The position numbers were made by a program, and so were the translations under genes. Below are positions 37,663-45,483 of a stretch of DNA of 64,000 nucleotides, piece after piece. The stretch covers positions 62,001-126,000 of IMG/VR virus record IMGVR_UViG_3300032331_000527. One strand, 5' to 3'. The notes beneath the pieces were generated by a model. The model was not told the DNA's origin, did not search any database, and worked only from the letters and a program-made list of their open reading frames with translations. The first letter of the stretch is position 1; every line of letters starts with the position of its first letter. Origin of the DNA: a virus.

Positions 37663-38102
37663 TTATTGAACTCCTCAGATAAACCAATAGCATCAGCAAC
37701 AGCTGTCAGCGTATTGGGATACGCTTTAGGAACAGTGTATGGAAGAGGATGATTTGTTGGACCACCGACACTACGACGAATGATATCTTCGCTGAGTAGC
37801 TCGGGATAGTAGAGTTCTAGCGCAGCGCAATCGTCGACGCAGTTGAACCAATGATATTCGCCAGGACGAACAGTAGTAAAGTCACCTGCTCTGAGCACAG
37901 TGACATCAACCAAGTCGTAGTCATTTTTTCGTACATGGATTTCCAGAGTTCCAGAAATAACGAAGAATCCGTTCCATTTGTGTTCATGCTTATGCTCCGA
38001 ACATTTGTAGCCTGCGTTGACGTTAATCTTATGCAGTTCGACTATAGGATTCTGAATAATTACGCTTGTGTCTCCCCAGACTTTTCCTGTGAAGTTGCCC
38101 AT
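37659..38102 (-). CDS. Cupin-domain protein, sugar-phosphate type
   Basis: 147 residues. Cupin motif 1 appears as CSEHKHEHKWNGFFVISG (His ligands 36, 38 and 40 region) followed by TLEIHV; motif 2 as AGDFTTVRPGEYHWFNC. The style is like mannose-6-phosphate isomerase type II C-terminal/sugar cupins. It overlaps KdsA by 43 bases, which suggests a joint role in nucleotide-sugar or Kdo metabolism. Catalysis not provable; could be an isomerase/epimerase or a binding protein. Confidence 0.75.
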   Translation of the reverse strand: MGNFTGKVWGDTSVIIQNPIVELHKINVNAGYKCSEHKHEHKWNGFFVISGTLEIHVRKNDYDLVDVTVLRAGDFTTVRPGEYHWFNCVDDCAALELYYPELLSEDIIRRSVGGPTNHPLPYTVPKAYPNTLTAVADAIGLSEEFNK

Positions 38103-38941
38103 GATGTACCCTTTCTCATATTTAATGAACGTTTGCTGATATAATCCAACTCTACTAAATCATATACTAATTTCTCGAACGTGTCAAGATAAATCATATT
38201 GGGTCCATCACTTGGCGCTTCAGTCGGATTCTCGTGGACTTCCATGAACACAGCGGAGACGCCAACAGAAACAGCAGCTCTAGCCATAAGAGTAACATAC
38301 TTACGCTCGCCCGATGAACTCGTACCATGAGCGCCAGGAAGTTGAACTGCGTGAGTGCAATCCATAACGACCTGATTGGTGTATTGCTTCATAACATCAA
38401 GGGAACGAAAGTCTACGACGAGATTGTTATAGCCAAATGTTGTGCCTCGCTCTGTGAACATATACTTTTCACAACCAAACTTCCGAAGCTTCTCGGCTAC
38501 ATTCCGCATCTCCCACGGAGACATGAACTGTCCTTTCTTCACGTTGACTGGCTTACCACTTTCCGCAGCCGCGCGAAGAAGATCAGTCTGACGACAAAGG
38601 AACGCAGGAATCTGAATGATATCAGCATTAACTGCATCACAGTGCCAAGGTTCGTGAACGTCCGTGAGAACCTCGATTCCTCGAGCACGGACGGCCTCCA
38701 TTCCGTAAAACGCCTCGTCGAAGCCGCTACCTCTTTTACTATCTGCGGAACTTCGATTCGCTTTATCGAAAGAGGTCTTATAGATGAAATTGATCTCTCT
38801 GTCGAATGCTTGACCTACTGCTTTGCAATCGGCTTGCAAATGTTCAGCCATCATAACTGCATGTTCCGTATTCTCAAATAGACACGGTCCAGCAATGATA
38901 CTTAGTGGTTTGTCGTTATGACAATTATCATAGAAGCTCAT
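38060..38941 (-). CDS. kdsA: 3-deoxy-D-manno-octulosonate 8-phosphate synthase
   Basis: 293 residues from ATG 38941 (an upstream GTG is in frame). Condenses phosphoenolpyruvate with arabinose-5-phosphate to give Kdo-8-phosphate for LPS inner core. Signatures: AGPCLFEN, YKTSFDKANRSSADS, VNVKKGQFMSPWEM, TERGTTFGYNNLVVDFRS, VMDCTHAVQLPG. Cys20 of GPC occupies the position that marks the metal-dependent class (the E. coli enzyme has Asn). Full length compared with the 284-residue E. coli enzyme, apparently intact. Unusual for a phage; probably modifies host LPS or supplies Kdo for another glycan. An internal promoter serves downstream genes. Confidence 0.95.
   Translation of the reverse strand: MSFYDNCHNDKPLSIIAGPCLFENTEHAVMMAEHLQADCKAVGQAFDREINFIYKTSFDKANRSSADSKRGSGFDEAFYGMEAVRARGIEVLTDVHEPWHCDAVNADIIQIPAFLCRQTDLLRAAAESGKPVNVKKGQFMSPWEMRNVAEKLRKFGCEKYMFTERGTTFGYNNLVVDFRSLDVMKQYTNQVVMDCTHAVQLPGAHGTSSSGERKYVTLMARAAVSVGVSAVFMEVHENPTEAPSDGPNMIYLDTFEKLVYDLVELDYISKRSLNMRKGTSWATSQEKSGETQA
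38159..38187 (-). promoter_or_regulatory. Intragenic sigma-70-like promoter upstream of cupin and gp33
   Basis: TTGACA (38187-38182), 17 bases, TATGAT (38164-38159) on the minus strand, inside the 3' part of kdsA. It would drive the cupin, gp33 and following genes independently. Confidence 0.55.
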
Positions 38942-38943
38942 TT

Positions 38944-39615
38944 TTAATCCCACAATGCGCGATAGTATTTACCGAAAAGAATGAATCCATTTGCTTTACG
39001 CTTGTCGAACTTAGCATTCTCTTCGTGATACACTTTCCAAGCCTCAACATTTTCTGGTGAATCGTCGAATGGAATTGCATCCATTATCCGACGAGTATAC
39101 GCACTAGGACTATCAGGAGCATCAGGATCTTCGTTTGCTTCCTGATTGAAAGTCCAAATCAATTCATCCAAAATCCAATCCCAACGAGCTTCGTGTAAGC
39201 TATCTACACCGCCGTATTTCTTGTCTTCTTCAGTTAGAGGCGGAGCAGAAGTCGAACGCAAATGCTCGGGAACGTCTTCGTCATCTACGAAGGGAGAACC
39301 GTGCTTAGTAGCTTTCAGTTGGATAAGCATAGGATGAATGATAATCGAAAGTGTATGATCCATTGACCACGTGTCGTAATTATCGAGCTTCACTTTGACA
39401 GTGCGCTTGCGCTTATCGTGTATCCAGTTGCAGAATTTGTGAACCCACGTTTCTGAGAGCCAGTCGCTGAACTTTTCTTTTGCTTTATAATCCCAACGCT
39501 CGTATCGAGGATCGTCATCATTCATGATGCCGTTGCGCTTAATCCAAAAGAATAGGATATCAGCGATTTGATATGCGCCGTACCAGGTCAGATAGGGTCC
39601 AATGTTTACTTTCAT
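38944..39615 (-). CDS. Conserved phage protein of unknown function (GPY...GKYYxxLWD family)
   Basis: 223 residues. It has the pattern of a widely distributed myovirus protein: N-terminal KVNIGPYLTWYGAYQIADIL, YDTWSMDHTLSIIIHPML, TKHGSPFVDDEDVPEHLRST, ARWDWILDELIWTFNQE and C-terminal NGFILFGKYYRALWD. No function known to me. It is Trp/Asp-rich, cytosolic, with no signal sequence. Lies immediately upstream of kdsA with a 2-base gap. Confidence 0.85.
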   Translation of the reverse strand: MKVNIGPYLTWYGAYQIADILFFWIKRNGIMNDDDPRYERWDYKAKEKFSDWLSETWVHKFCNWIHDKRKRTVKVKLDNYDTWSMDHTLSIIIHPMLIQLKATKHGSPFVDDEDVPEHLRSTSAPPLTEEDKKYGGVDSLHEARWDWILDELIWTFNQEANEDPDAPDSPSAYTRRIMDAIPFDDSPENVEAWKVYHEENAKFDKRKANGFILFGKYYRALWD

Positions 39616-40066: not shown

Positions 40067-40142
40067 TGGCTCGGGGTGATGGGCTCGAACCACCAACACA
40101 CAGATTCAAAGTCTGTAGTTCTACCAATTGAACTAACCCCGA
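40067..40142 (-). tRNA. tRNA-Gln (anticodon TTG)
   Basis: 76 bases with encoded CCA. Acceptor TCGGGGT pairs with ACCCCGA, then G-CCA; D arm GTTCAATTGGTAGAAC; anticodon arm ACAGA-CTTTGAA-TCTGT with TTG anticodon; T arm GGTGG-TTCGAGC-CCATC. The first base U pairing with A72 is typical of tRNA-Gln. Would decode CAA/CAG. Lies 4 bases beyond the adjacent gene's stop. Confidence 0.95.
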
Positions 40143-40408: not shown

Positions 40409-40942
40409 TTATGGATTAGTAGGAGATTTGGGTACATCGAATACGAACGTAATACGTTCAACTTCCGAAATGTTTTTCGCAGAGTGCATCTTTTTGTTAT
40501 CGAACCAAAAGAACGTTCCTGGACTAATTATATGTTCTTCACCGTCTACTTCATACAGATACTCTCCTTGGAGAGCAAAATGATATCTGTCACGCGAAAG
40601 ATAATACGTTCCGTCATCAATATGTCGTCCCATACTTCCACCGACCTGAAGTCGAAAGAACGCTGCGCGAGAAGTTTGCTCGATGTTCCAAGATCTCAAC
40701 CATTCGTGAATCTCGGTATACTTATCAAACAAAGGAGTGTTTTGCTGCTGTTCACAATTCTTGGGATTAATACGCTTCGACGGTACAACAGCCATAACGA
40801 GTGGAAGAAATCCATATGGATCCAGATCGCCAGCGATATTATCGTAAGTAGAAACAGCTTTCCAGTCGCCAGGATTATCTAATACCTGTTGAAGCACAGG
40901 CTGATATAATTCTTCGTAACTGATAAATCTAAAATTGGTCAT
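40409..40942 (-). CDS. Aspartyl/asparaginyl beta-hydroxylase-like 2OG-Fe(II) oxygenase
   Basis: 177 residues from ATG 40942. The double-stranded beta-helix core shows FRLQVGGSMGRHIDDGTYYL (His-x-Asp, first iron ligands), RYHFALQGEYLYEVDGEE, PGTFFWFDNKKMHSAKN (distal His) and a following Arg (ERITFVFD). The family hydroxylates Asp/Asn side chains or related substrates using 2-oxoglutarate; phage members are frequent in T4-like genomes with unknown targets. It lies immediately downstream of the tmRNA gene, so it may share the tmRNA promoter by read-through. Confidence 0.82.
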   Translation of the reverse strand: MTNFRFISYEELYQPVLQQVLDNPGDWKAVSTYDNIAGDLDPYGFLPLVMAVVPSKRINPKNCEQQQNTPLFDKYTEIHEWLRSWNIEQTSRAAFFRLQVGGSMGRHIDDGTYYLSRDRYHFALQGEYLYEVDGEEHIISPGTFFWFDNKKMHSAKNISEVERITFVFDVPKSPTNP

Positions 40943-41001
40943 AATCAATCCTGTGTGAAACGGGCCCGTTCTGTTCCAAGGTGGAGCCCATACCCGTGAG
41001 A

Positions 41002-41043
41002 TTACGCCGCTAGGCGAGTCTCGATGAGTGCATTATCGTTTGC
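41002..41043 (-). other. tmRNA tag reading frame ANDNALIETRLAA
   Basis: Resume codon GCA at 41043, then AAC GAT AAT and so on, to TAA at 41004-41002. Starts ANDN like many alphaproteobacterial tags and ends LAA, the usual ClpXP/ClpAP-type degron. The interior ALIETR segment may differ from the host tag. Confidence 0.9.
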
Positions 41044-41112
41044 ATCTAGAACGTCGCTTTGGTCTACTCGTACCTTTACTACAATCCGTCGAACCTGTTT
41101 CGCCCCCATCAA

Positions 41113-41204
41113 AGATACACAATATCAAGCACCCTCTTGACCGCAGCCACTCACTTCCGTCGAAGCTATTCAAACGTGGTAGGACCCGTCGGCATTGTGT
41201 ATCT
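41113..41204 (-). repeat. Inverted repeat bracketing the tmRNA intervening segment
   Basis: AGATACACAAT (41204-41194) and ATTGTGTATCT (41123-41113) are perfectly complementary over 11 bp. They sit one base from the acceptor CCA and five bases from the coding 5' end, so in precursor RNA they extend the acceptor stem and present the processing sites. Confidence 0.85.
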
Positions 41205-41275
41205 ATGGTGGAGGCGTCGGGTACTGCCCCCGAGTCCGAATCGTCTATTCTGAACGCCTCAACAACCTTAGCGTA

Positions 41276-41410
41276 TTATTTATAATACCACTTTACGGGT
41301 GGATTGTCAAGAAGGAATTTCCTAGCCTGTGTCTCAGACCAGTTATTGATACAGATATATCGCGGGCAATCCCAGTAGATAAAAGCCCACGAGCTATAGT
41401 GCTCGCTCAT
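41276..41410 (-). CDS. 44-residue protein overlapping the tmRNA promoter
   Basis: ATG at 41410 overlaps the stop of the exonuclease gene (ATGA), with GGAG 5 bases upstream. The 44-residue product is Trp/Tyr-rich (HYSSWAFIYWDCPRYICINNW) and ends WYYK. Its last 12 codons contain the -35 (TTGACA) and -10/late elements of the tmRNA promoter, the stop codon lying inside TATTATAAATAA. No family recognised; may be a genuine small gene or a leader-like relic. Confidence 0.65.
   Translation of the reverse strand: MSEHYSSWAFIYWDCPRYICINNWSETQARKFLLDNPPVKWYYK
41277..41310 (-). promoter_or_regulatory. Overlapping early and late promoters for tmRNA
   Basis: TTGACA (41310-41305), 17-base spacer, TATTAT (41287-41282) forms a sigma-70-like promoter. 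TATAAATA (41284-41277), the exact T4-type late octamer, overlaps its -10. Both would start transcription just before the tmRNA acceptor piece, so expression may continue from early to late infection. Confidence 0.7.
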
Positions 41411-42099
41411 GCTATCTCCGCCAGGGCTTTACGAACTCGATATTCGTGGTCGTCGCGCACGCGAATGAGATCAGCCACATAGTCGTTACGCTCGCCATGA
41501 AAAGCTTGGAACTCTTGGTCTTCGCTGACCATAAGGATAACGATATTAGGCGTCCTGATTCCAGTGTGCTCTTCGAACATGATTGAGTAAGCCGTAGCCT
41601 GTAGGAAGTAATCCTTAATCATGTCGCGAGTTTTCATTCGCGTGGCAGTCTTGAAATCGACTACAGTGACTTCACCGTTCCACTCGCAGATTAAGTCTGC
41701 TGTCCCTGCGACCCTGAGAATATCTGAGAACATAGGCGTTTCAGACGCATAGACAAGTTGCAAATTTTCATCCAGACATTTCTGAACAGGACGAAAGTAT
41801 GAGAGTGTCGTAGGTAGTATTTTTCTTGCATCTATTTCATCTCCGAGAATATATTTTTCCATGAGATTATGAAGAGCAGTCCCTCGGCTAGCTGCTTGTC
41901 TACTTATCTTGTTAGCTTGTTCTTCGCCGACACGACGTCGCCACTCAGCAAGAGACTTCTTCTTCTCAGGTTGAGAACCAAGAACGGTTGTTATTGATGG
42001 ATATATGTTACCATCGGGGGTCGAATATCGACGCCCCAATGATGTGTTGATTTGAAATGCTTTGGGTAAATCTATATGCGGACTATGGTCAAATTTCAC
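41407..42099 (-). CDS. PD-(D/E)XK exonuclease-like protein
   Basis: 230 residues from GTG 42099, which overlaps the PhoH stop (GTGA). PSITTVLGSQPEKKKSLAEW, ISRQAASRGTALHNLMEKYI (motif with Arg-Gly-Thr-x-x-His), VAGTADLICEWNGEVTVVDFKTA (catalytic Asp-x13-Asp-x-Lys) and FLQATAYSIMFEEHTG (Gln-x-x-Tyr) are the PDDEXK_1/RecB-like nuclease signature. Such nucleases in T4-like cyanophages are annotated as exonucleases possibly used in host DNA degradation or recombination. Confidence 0.85.
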   Translation of the reverse strand: MKFDHSPHIDLPKAFQINTSLGRRYSTPDGNIYPSITTVLGSQPEKKKSLAEWRRRVGEEQANKISRQAASRGTALHNLMEKYILGDEIDARKILPTTLSYFRPVQKCLDENLQLVYASETPMFSDILRVAGTADLICEWNGEVTVVDFKTATRMKTRDMIKDYFLQATAYSIMFEEHTGIRTPNIVILMVSEDQEFQAFHGERNDYVADLIRVRDDHEYRVRKALAEIA

Positions 42100-42869
42100 A
42101 CTATCATTCCTCGTTCTTCAAGATCTGTTCGCGTAATTATATAGTCGCGAACGAAGCCTGAACGAACGATATCATTCTTATCAAATTTGACAATATCAAA
42201 AGATTTCATTTCAGCTGCTACCTTGAGCAGATTAGGCATTCCGCTGCCTTCACGAGTATAGTCCTTTTGCGTAAAGTCACCACAGAAGATAACACGACAT
42301 CCTTCACCTACGCGAGTCATTACCGTATGGATTTCATGGTCACTCATATTTTGACACTCATCAATTATAATAATGTTATCGCGAAATGTCAAGCCGCGAA
42401 GGAACGATGTTGTGTCAAATTGAATGTAGCCATTCTGTTTCAGCCAGTCGTAAGGCTTATCACAGACTTCCGAAATGATTCCTTGATAAGGGCTTTCGTA
42501 CACAGCAGCTTTATCCTTAGCATTGCCAGGAAGGAAACCGATGTCACGAGTTGGCACTACGCTTCGAAGGATGACGATTGGCTTAGGAGCGTCTCCACTA
42601 ATCATAGCATTCATAGAAAGCCATAACGCAATAAACGTCTTGCCTGTACCCGCGCAGCCATGAAGAATAAGATTTCTGTCGGAATGAAATGCTTCAAACG
42701 CGATACGCTGAGCAGCAGTCTTTGGGGAGATTTTACACAGACTAGGAATAACAGGTTGTCGATATCCTCCTGTTGTTCTAGTTCTCTTTTTTTGCTTTCG
42801 TTCTTTTCTCGTCAAATACTTACTGGCTTCGGCTTCAAGAAATGCTTCGTCTATGACTGGAGGCTTCAT
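42096..42869 (-). CDS. phoH: PhoH-like ATPase
   Basis: 257 residues. Walker A GCAGTGKT at 71-78; Walker B IIIIDECQ ending Asp170-Glu171; sensor-like VIFCGDFTQ; a basic N-terminal region (RKERKQKKRTR). The PhoH family couples ATP hydrolysis to RNA/DNA unwinding or processing; phage copies are common in marine and rhizobial T4-like phages, and the function in infection is unresolved. Overlaps the exonuclease gene by 4 bases, consistent with shared nucleic-acid metabolism. Confidence 0.92.
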   Translation of the reverse strand: MKPPVIDEAFLEAEASKYLTRKERKQKKRTRTTGGYRQPVIPSLCKISPKTAAQRIAFEAFHSDRNLILHGCAGTGKTFIALWLSMNAMISGDAPKPIVILRSVVPTRDIGFLPGNAKDKAAVYESPYQGIISEVCDKPYDWLKQNGYIQFDTTSFLRGLTFRDNIIIIDECQNMSDHEIHTVMTRVGEGCRVIFCGDFTQKDYTREGSGMPNLLKVAAEMKSFDIVKFDKNDIVRSGFVRDYIITRTDLEERGMIV

Positions 42870-44614: not shown

Positions 44615-44785
44615 TCATATAAGTTTCCTACTGGGTATAATTAACAACCAAGGTCTTGGCTTTTTCATAATATCTTCTACTGTAACTTTCAAGCAGCCTC
44701 TACGATAATAGTTACGATACCTATTCGTAATTGATATTACTGGTTGAAATGTATCTTGATTGATTCCAGCTTGCTGTTTCATCAT
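44615..44785 (-). CDS. Small basic protein, 56 residues
   Basis: ATG at 44785 overlaps the stop of the BI-1 family gene (ATGA) with GGAG 8 bases upstream. The product has a central basic patch (NRYRNYYRRGCLKV) and KKPRPWLLIIPSRK; pI clearly basic. It fills an otherwise empty gap before the glycosylase-like gene. No family recognised; possibly nucleic-acid or host-factor binding. Confidence 0.65.
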   Translation of the reverse strand: MMKQQAGINQDTFQPVISITNRYRNYYRRGCLKVTVEDIMKKPRPWLLIIPSRKLI

Positions 44786-45483
44786 TTTCTATCTCCTAGC
44801 AACTGGAGCAGGTTCACAAAGATATTGATGAAGTCTAGGTAAAGATTGAGAGCGCCAAAAATACCAGCCTTGCGGATTTCTTCGTCATCATTTAGTTCAT
44901 AATACTTCTCTTTGAGATCCTGCATGTCATATGCAGTGAAGCCAACAAAGATAAGGACACCGATAACACTGATGGCAAAGGCCATAACGCTACTCTGTAG
45001 AAACAGATTGACGACACCAGCAATCATCAAACCAATAGCACCCATCATGAGAAACGATCCCATGCTACTCAGGTCACGCTTAGTTGTATATCCATACAAT
45101 GCAGTAGCACCAAATGTTGCAGCACTAATGAAGAACACATTAGCAATGCTGCCCAGCTTGAATATCATAAAGATGCTACTAAGGCTCAGGCCCATCAAAG
45201 CAGAGAAACAATAAAGCATAGTCCTTGCTGTGCTTGATGACATACTATCTGCCATGTACGAGAACAAAAACACGAATGCAAGAGGCGCAAAGATAGCAAC
45301 CCACTTGAATGGTGTTCCCCAAATGGCTGCACCAATCTCAGGTGTGAGACCAATGTATGCGCTGACAACCGCACTGATTAGTAGTGCGATTCCCATGTGA
45401 TTGAACACACCAACAAGATATGTTCTGAGACCCCAATCAACGACTGGTGCTGGATATGCTTGTGATTCGTTTTGATAAGACAT
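44782..45483 (-). CDS. Bax inhibitor-1 (BI-1/TMBIM, YccA-like) membrane protein
   Basis: 233 residues, seven hydrophobic segments starting near residues 23, 60, 88, 112, 143, 165 and 210. The C-terminal ALNLYLDFINIFVNLLQLLG and FVGFTAYDMQDLKEKY are BI-1/YccA family hallmarks; acidic residues in these match the di-aspartyl pH-sensing site. Bacterial YccA modulates the FtsH protease; others leak calcium or protons. A phage copy could tune host FtsH or membrane stress. Start ATG 45483. Coupled to the small basic gene downstream. Confidence 0.92.
   Translation of the reverse strand: MSYQNESQAYPAPVVDWGLRTYLVGVFNHMGIALLISAVVSAYIGLTPEIGAAIWGTPFKWVAIFAPLAFVFLFSYMADSMSSSTARTMLYCFSALMGLSLSSIFMIFKLGSIANVFFISAATFGATALYGYTTKRDLSSMGSFLMMGAIGLMIAGVVNLFLQSSVMAFAISVIGVLIFVGFTAYDMQDLKEKYYELNDDEEIRKAGIFGALNLYLDFINIFVNLLQLLGDRK

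Follow-up and report, generated by a model that had tools for sequence, protein, structure and literature searches.

Whether a circularly permuted tmRNA gene carried by a phage yields a working ribosome-rescue RNA, and in what form, is the question raised by a minus-strand locus in the DNA analyzed here. The window, by which we mean the whole 64,000-nt stretch, corresponds to bases 62001-126000 of a virus record that is 139,058 bases long. A preliminary description had read the locus from its letters as a circularly permuted two-piece tmRNA of the alphaproteobacterial type with a complete tag, encoded by a T4-type phage. Our results bear out this reading, and they indicate that the tmRNA is real and very probably functional. 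What is notable is the variant, namely, a phage clade whose tmRNA has lost pseudoknot 1, together with an intervening segment (spacer) that behaves like an exchangeable module. The absence of pseudoknot 1, the promoter, and the spacer as an exchanged segment all go beyond the preliminary description.

A permuted two-piece tmRNA gene in the window

The Rfam model alpha_tmRNA, which had been proposed as a check in the preliminary description, matches positions 41314-40959 of the minus strand over the full length of the model, with 100.4 bits against a cut-off of 50. The model tmRNA_permuted (RF04321) also matches the window tmRNA over its full length, with 90.7 bits (cut-off, 47). Over the whole 64 kb, the E values of these matches are 3.2e-26 for alpha_tmRNA and 3.7e-16 for tmRNA_permuted, and ARAGORN independently placed a permuted tmRNA at the identical locus with the tag ANDNALIETRLAA. 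A search with RF00023 over the whole record returned only pieces below the threshold. Both the sequence and ARAGORN give a permuted gene order, in which the T arm and CCA are followed by the spacer, the other acceptor strand, and the tag. The parts are as follows.

41206-41270, minus strand: acceptor piece (5' end approximate; Rfam alignment)
41267-41264, minus strand: helix 2 strand GGTT, within the acceptor piece
41233-41217, minus strand: T arm, with T stem TCGGG/CCCGA at 41233-41229/41221-41217
41216-41210, minus strand: acceptor 3' strand CGCCTCC, followed by A-CCA ending at 41206
41205-41108, minus strand: spacer (intervening segment), 98 nt, from the sequence
41204-41194 and 41123-41113, minus strand: closing arms of the spacer, an exact 11-bp inverted repeat (AGATACACAAT/ATTGTGTATCT) extending the acceptor stem
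40959-41107, minus strand: coding piece, about 149 nt (3' end approximate; 40959 is the end of the alpha_tmRNA match)
41107-41101, minus strand: acceptor 5' strand GGGGGCG, start of the coding piece
41064-41061, minus strand: helix 2 strand GACC, within the coding piece
41044-41060, minus strand: linker AAAGCGACGTTCTAGAT, 17 nt, occupying the place of pseudoknot 1 in bacterial relatives
41002-41043, minus strand: tag frame ANDNALIETRLAA plus stop, with resume codon GCA at 41043-41041
40960-40991, minus strand: last stem of the coding piece (by eye), ATGGGCTC at 40991-40984 with GGGCCCGT at 40967-40960

The preliminary description had placed the CCA end at 41206, the 98-nt spacer, the 11-bp inverted repeat, and the start of the coding half at 41107 correctly to the base. 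It had also held that the two halves can rebuild one acceptor stem, and GGGGGCG indeed pairs with CGCCTCC over 7 bp, including a G3-U70 wobble (G41105 with U41212). The G3-U70 wobble is an alanine identity element. In addition to this wobble, the window tmRNA displays the encoded CCA, the alanine resume codon GCA, and the hydrophobic tag end of permuted tmRNAs of the alpha type. The codons of the tag frame (41043-41002) are GCA AAC GAT AAT GCA CTC ATC GAG ACT CGC CTA GCG GCG TAA, and the last stem encloses the conserved GGAACAGAA, a motif that is aligned in all relatives. Compensatory changes are found among related phages in both the T stem and the spacer stem. Because of the E values, the agreement with ARAGORN, the presence of the gene at the same place in four close relatives (L137-L140), and these compensatory changes, a chance origin of the match is excluded.

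Relationship to known tmRNAs

The window tmRNA resembles the alphaproteobacterial two-piece tmRNA (RF01849) in its permuted order, the T loop GGCAGTA of the acceptor half, the encoded CCA, helix 2, the ANDN tag, the GGAACAGAA region, and a spacer stem that extends the acceptor stem. It differs from these bacterial RNAs in that it lacks pseudoknot 1 and has a longer spacer, and its alpha_tmRNA score (100 bits) is below those of the bacterial members (143-313 bits) because parts are missing. The region after the tag is also shorter than in one bacterial group of RF01849. With the permuted tmRNAs of betaproteobacteria and cyanobacteria (RF01850 and RF01851), the window tmRNA shares the permuted principle and the possession of fewer pseudoknots than one-piece tmRNA. 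RF01849, RF01850, and RF01851 are merged in RF04321, which matches the window; the specific model that matches it is alpha_tmRNA.

Phage-borne ssrA genes with a tag are also represented by the one-piece tmRNAs of mycobacteriophages Bxz1 and Wildcat and of Bacillus phage G (PMC4131195), which differ from the window in that the gene is not permuted and the hosts are others. Methylophilales phage Melnitz (Kyanoviridae; PMC9004378) is, like the phage of the window, T4-like, and its ssrA gene likewise has a late element upstream, a long spacer (142 nt in Melnitz), and PhoH and PD-(D/E)XK nuclease genes before it. Melnitz differs from the window in that the block preceding its tag is longer and, as judged by eye, could form a hairpin, in that a glutamine riboswitch is located at the 3' end, and in that a 54-residue frame starts in the spacer. 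A count made in 2022 identified 53 of 133 distinct phage tmRNAs as two-piece, nearly all of them aquatic (PMC9004378), and a 2025 database contains 79 phage sequences (PMC11915505). Two-piece tmRNAs are thus already known from T4-like phages, and the novelty implied by the preliminary description had been preceded by the publication of Melnitz and others (PMC9004378).

Absence of pseudoknot 1 in a phage clade

In the Rfam alignment, the pseudoknot 1 block is deleted in the window tmRNA, and the 17-nt linker AAAGCGACGTTCTAGAT is present instead. Bacterial relatives harbor a strongly conserved block of the GGCATGGTACCRCCGTTATCGGGCC type after the helix 2 strand and before the tag. The short form without pseudoknot 1 was identified in 33 distinct viral sequences (32 from related phages plus that of the window), in which the distance from GGGG to the tag is 55-68 nt, versus approximately 76-86 nt in 35 bacterial sequences, and it was absent from the bacteria compared (the same 35 sequences). 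Because the bacterial pseudoknot 1 varies too little for a compensatory test, its presence in bacteria is taken from the published model. In the linker, no helix with compensatory support was found. Members of the phage clade could form a 3-bp GYR/UGC pairing around the resume codon, which we rejected as too short to substitute for pseudoknot 1. A longer pre-tag block, possibly forming a hairpin or pseudoknot as judged by eye, is kept in Melnitz, in Mesorhizobium and Rhodobacter phages, and in L024. Pseudoknot 1 is usual in bacteria and lies outside the definition of RF04321; therefore, the window tmRNA is a variant and not a non-member.

Pseudoknot 1 has been described as present in the bacterial groups surveyed, with single exceptions, and the losses listed in that survey concern pseudoknots 3 and 4 in certain cyanobacteria and pseudoknot 2 in relatives of Rickettsia, and do not include pseudoknot 1 (PMC1168896). 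Older work, as cited in PMC3968760, concluded that tagging requires pseudoknot 1. In Escherichia coli, a hairpin can replace it (PMC3968760), and single-stranded RNA in its place has been reported, as cited in PMC4236655, to allow good tagging in vivo. Our search of the openly readable literature yielded no description of a natural lineage that bears a tag but lacks pseudoknot 1, and as far as could be checked, its absence from a whole phage clade is new. The need of tmRNA for pseudoknot 1 has so far been argued from E. coli mutants, and a natural lineage that lacks it but retains an intact tag frame makes this need testable.

Tag peptide

The window tag ANDNALIETRLAA keeps the LAA end, and the identical 13-residue tag is found in L139, L191, and L203. 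Like bacterial tags, each of the 39 distinct viral tags has a terminal AA, which is part of ALAA in 26 of them; these shared ends are partly built in, as DN and a final A were demanded by the search pattern. The RLAA end is also bacterial (ANDNYAEARLAA). The preliminary description had raised the possibility that the interior of the tag alters the specificity of proteolysis. Tag interiors vary as widely in bacteria, the LAA end is that of host tags, and the 13-residue tag recurs; the sequences give no sign of an altered degradation signal.

Promoter, gene neighborhood, and host

The features surrounding the tmRNA are as follows.

42096-42869: PhoH gene, upstream of the PD-(D/E)XK exonuclease gene
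41407-42099, minus strand: PD-(D/E)XK exonuclease gene, upstream neighbor
41389-41406, minus strand: terminator-like hairpin between the nuclease gene and the tmRNA promoter (weak; 0.6 expected by chance in the stretch)
41277-41310, minus strand: predicted promoter and late element (TTGACA at 41310-41305, 17-nt promoter spacer, TATTAT at 41287-41282)
40409-40942, minus strand: Asp/Arg hydroxylase-like cupin gene, 177 aa (PF05118 and PF07883), directly downstream
40067-40142, minus strand: tRNA-Gln (TTG) in the conserved neighborhood (ARAGORN and Rfam)

The predicted sigma-70 promoter matches 11 of 12 consensus positions and has an extended -10 element. It overlaps the T4-type late element TATAAATA at 41284-41277, a sequence that occurs three times in the window. 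The promoter arrangement is similar in many relatives; of the 73 viral tmRNA loci, 26 carry an exact copy of the late element, and a strict sigma-70 match is present in 33. A predicted sigma-70 promoter overlapping a T4-type late element is, as far as could be checked, new. A terminator scan between the tmRNA and the downstream cupin gene found none.

In the four close relatives L137-L140, the tmRNA is located just upstream of the same hydroxylase gene, and the neighbor protein is 77-79% identical; tRNA-Gln is present downstream in three of the four (L137, L138, and L140). The order PhoH, nuclease, and tmRNA in the window corresponds to PhoH, PD-(D/E)XK nuclease, two small genes, and ssrA in Melnitz. 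Because of this conserved place in L137-L140 and in Melnitz, the tmRNA looks like a maintained phage gene and not a stray fragment.

The assignment to a T4-type phage in the preliminary description agrees with the presence of the T4 core genes gp32 (410 bits), gp33, and gp59 in the same genome; among the matches listed, the identity of gp32 to its counterparts in Synechococcus T4-like phages reaches 59%. A search for smpB in the rest of the genome had also been suggested there, and none was found in the 139-kb record, which is possibly incomplete; RF-1/ArfB-type rescue proteins and ClpP likewise had no match in the record. Because neither SmpB nor ClpP was found in the record, trans-translation would need the SmpB and proteases of the host. 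The alpha-type RNA suggests an alphaproteobacterial host, with Melnitz as a counter-case, which has an alpha-type tmRNA yet infects a gammaproteobacterium (PMC9004378). Among bacterial genomes, the exact acceptor-half pattern had no match, and a looser pattern matched assorted alphaproteobacteria only. A blastn search of the tmRNA region against phage records found nothing, and for related phage tmRNAs, the only matches were short ones to Melnitz and to Mesorhizobium, Erythrobacter, and Rhodobacter phages.

Length, closing stem, and exchange of the spacer

The median spacer length is 85.5 nt in viruses (27-171 nt) versus 33.5 nt in bacteria (6-76 nt; P = 6e-14), the bacterial set being small and derived from pattern matches and best-scoring loci. 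All seven closing pairs are formed by 58 of 65 viral spacers; with shuffled partners, the number averages 13.8 and does not exceed 24. Extension of the acceptor stem by the spacer ends is also seen in some bacteria (L116 and L122). The similarity of spacers and that of mature parts are uncorrelated (rank correlations of -0.02 to 0.13). L009 and L021 have mature parts that are 97-100% identical and spacers that are unrelated, and the spacers of L138 and L065 are 99% identical, with tags that differ. As far as could be checked, the swapping of spacers between phages independently of the mature RNA that these comparisons indicate is new. It draws attention to a part of phage tmRNA genes that has been largely overlooked and from which small RNAs or proteins may arise. 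The window tmRNA (41206-40959) is itself a mosaic, with a 5' coding part nearest to L041 (97%) and a tag and 3' part nearest to L139 (88%).

The window spacer has no relative in our collection, no reading frame of 25 codons, and no Rfam family match except tmRNA itself. We considered it as an unusually stable RNA, with a z score of -4.0 for the spacer plus the acceptor stem, and rejected this; the interior alone is not more stable than shuffles (z = +0.91), so the value of -4.0 comes from the closing stem.

Among related phages, spacer family B is found in 23 contigs, always between tmRNA halves, and also in genes whose T arms differ considerably or whose acceptor stem is altered. Its helices have changes on both sides in 9 of 28 pairs, a number reached in 0 of 500 shuffles, and the family has no match in Rfam. 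Spacer family A was rejected as a known RNA, its Rfam match being at chance level. The spacer frame of L167/L175 displays 10 synonymous and 4 other codon changes, and third positions account for 11 of the 15 changes (P = 0.002). A weaker coding signal is present in the frame of L086/L089 (P = 0.014).

Individual spacers have further features. Spacer family B (L021, L041, L045, and L185-L201) is 91-95 nt long, is situated between CCTCCACCA and GGGG, and was found only inside phage tmRNA genes. It has two hairpins with invariant loops, GTTGCT and AGCAAC, which complement each other, making kissing loops possible. In L193 and L198, the family B spacer is followed in tandem by a second spacer, with GGGGGCGCACTAAGG between, as if one had been inserted. 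The spacers of L167, L169-L171, and L175 contain a frame for a membrane-like peptide of 38 residues, MKTPLVREVSKWMFKAYIVWSICADITLLAGLIYLVFF, that ends exactly at the spacer end. Spacer frames located behind a ribosome-binding-like sequence and running into the coding half are present in L086 and L089, in L010, L043, and L057, and in L181 (Melnitz, 1585-1726).

Proposed mechanism and alternative explanations

Based on the sequence, the model matches, the compensatory changes, the conserved place, the promoter match, and the absence of pseudoknot 1, we propose, with a probability of roughly 0.8, that the phage encodes an alphaproteobacterial-type two-piece tmRNA that is processed, charged, bound by SmpB, and active in tagging without pseudoknot 1. 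A single transcript would start near 41275, and on folding, the spacer arms would extend the acceptor stem. RNase P would cleave before G41107, and 3' processing would expose the CCA at 41206. The acceptor piece would then measure about 65 nt and the coding piece about 150 nt, and pairing in the acceptor stem and helix 2 would keep the two together. Charging with alanine and binding of host SmpB would lead to the rescue of stalled ribosomes, with a short single-stranded linker standing in for pseudoknot 1 in the phage clade. The added tag would end in LAA, which host ClpXP-type proteases would recognize. The retention of the tmRNA by phages, its strong promoter, and its reshuffling suggest that ribosome rescue matters during infection, and its control by the phage tmRNA at that time may be of benefit to the phage.

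It is conceivable that the phage RNA mainly occupies host SmpB or alanyl-tRNA synthetase, thereby dampening host trans-translation. A DS6A-type RNA consisting only of the tRNA-like domain strongly inhibits tmRNA, possibly through titration of SmpB (Mao 2009, as cited in PMC4131195), and no SmpB is supplied by the phage record. We nevertheless regard this as unlikely, since a decoy would have no need of a complete tag frame, a resume codon, and an LAA end, all of which persist in the 39 distinct viral tags. The prospect that the gene is a mere passenger, gained from a host by recombination and without a role in infection, seems more remote still. tmRNA genes are common integration sites, and the gene is a mosaic of blocks with different nearest relatives, as a passenger might be; however, it occupies the same place in divergent phages, its stems carry compensatory changes, its promoter is conserved, no bacterial genome has a matching acceptor half, and the form without pseudoknot 1 was not seen in the bacteria examined.

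A further explanation adds to that of a phage tmRNA that tags without pseudoknot 1 and is not exclusive of it. The spacer, freed as a stem-closed RNA (or giving a small protein in some relatives), would act alone, and the tmRNA would in part be its vehicle. This would accord with the greater length of viral spacers (85.5 versus 33.5 nt), the unrelated spacers of L009 and L021, the presence of one spacer family in tmRNAs with very different tRNA-like domains, the compensatory pairs of that family, which has no Rfam match (9; 0/500 shuffles), and the third-position changes in the L167/L175 frame (11/15; P = 0.002). The window spacer, however, is without kin, has an interior z score of +0.91, and contains no 25-codon frame, and the exchange may be neutral recombination at conserved flanks, so we advance this explanation only tentatively. 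With similar reserve, the two-piece tmRNA gene of a large group of aquatic phages could be viewed as a chassis with tradeable spacer cargo, RNA or small protein, of which one clade shed pseudoknot 1 and still tags. The cargo would be traded between phages independently of the tmRNA, and tRNA enzymes would free the spacer where it is a stem-closed RNA; we consider this view rather doubtful.

Other genes in the window

Two further minus-strand genes of the window encode proteins that have no PHROGs match. That at 38060-38953 resembles, by eye, KdsA (KDO-8-phosphate synthase), an envelope sugar gene product that is unusual in phage. The other, at 44782-45483, encodes a membrane protein that by eye resembles the BI-1/YccA family.
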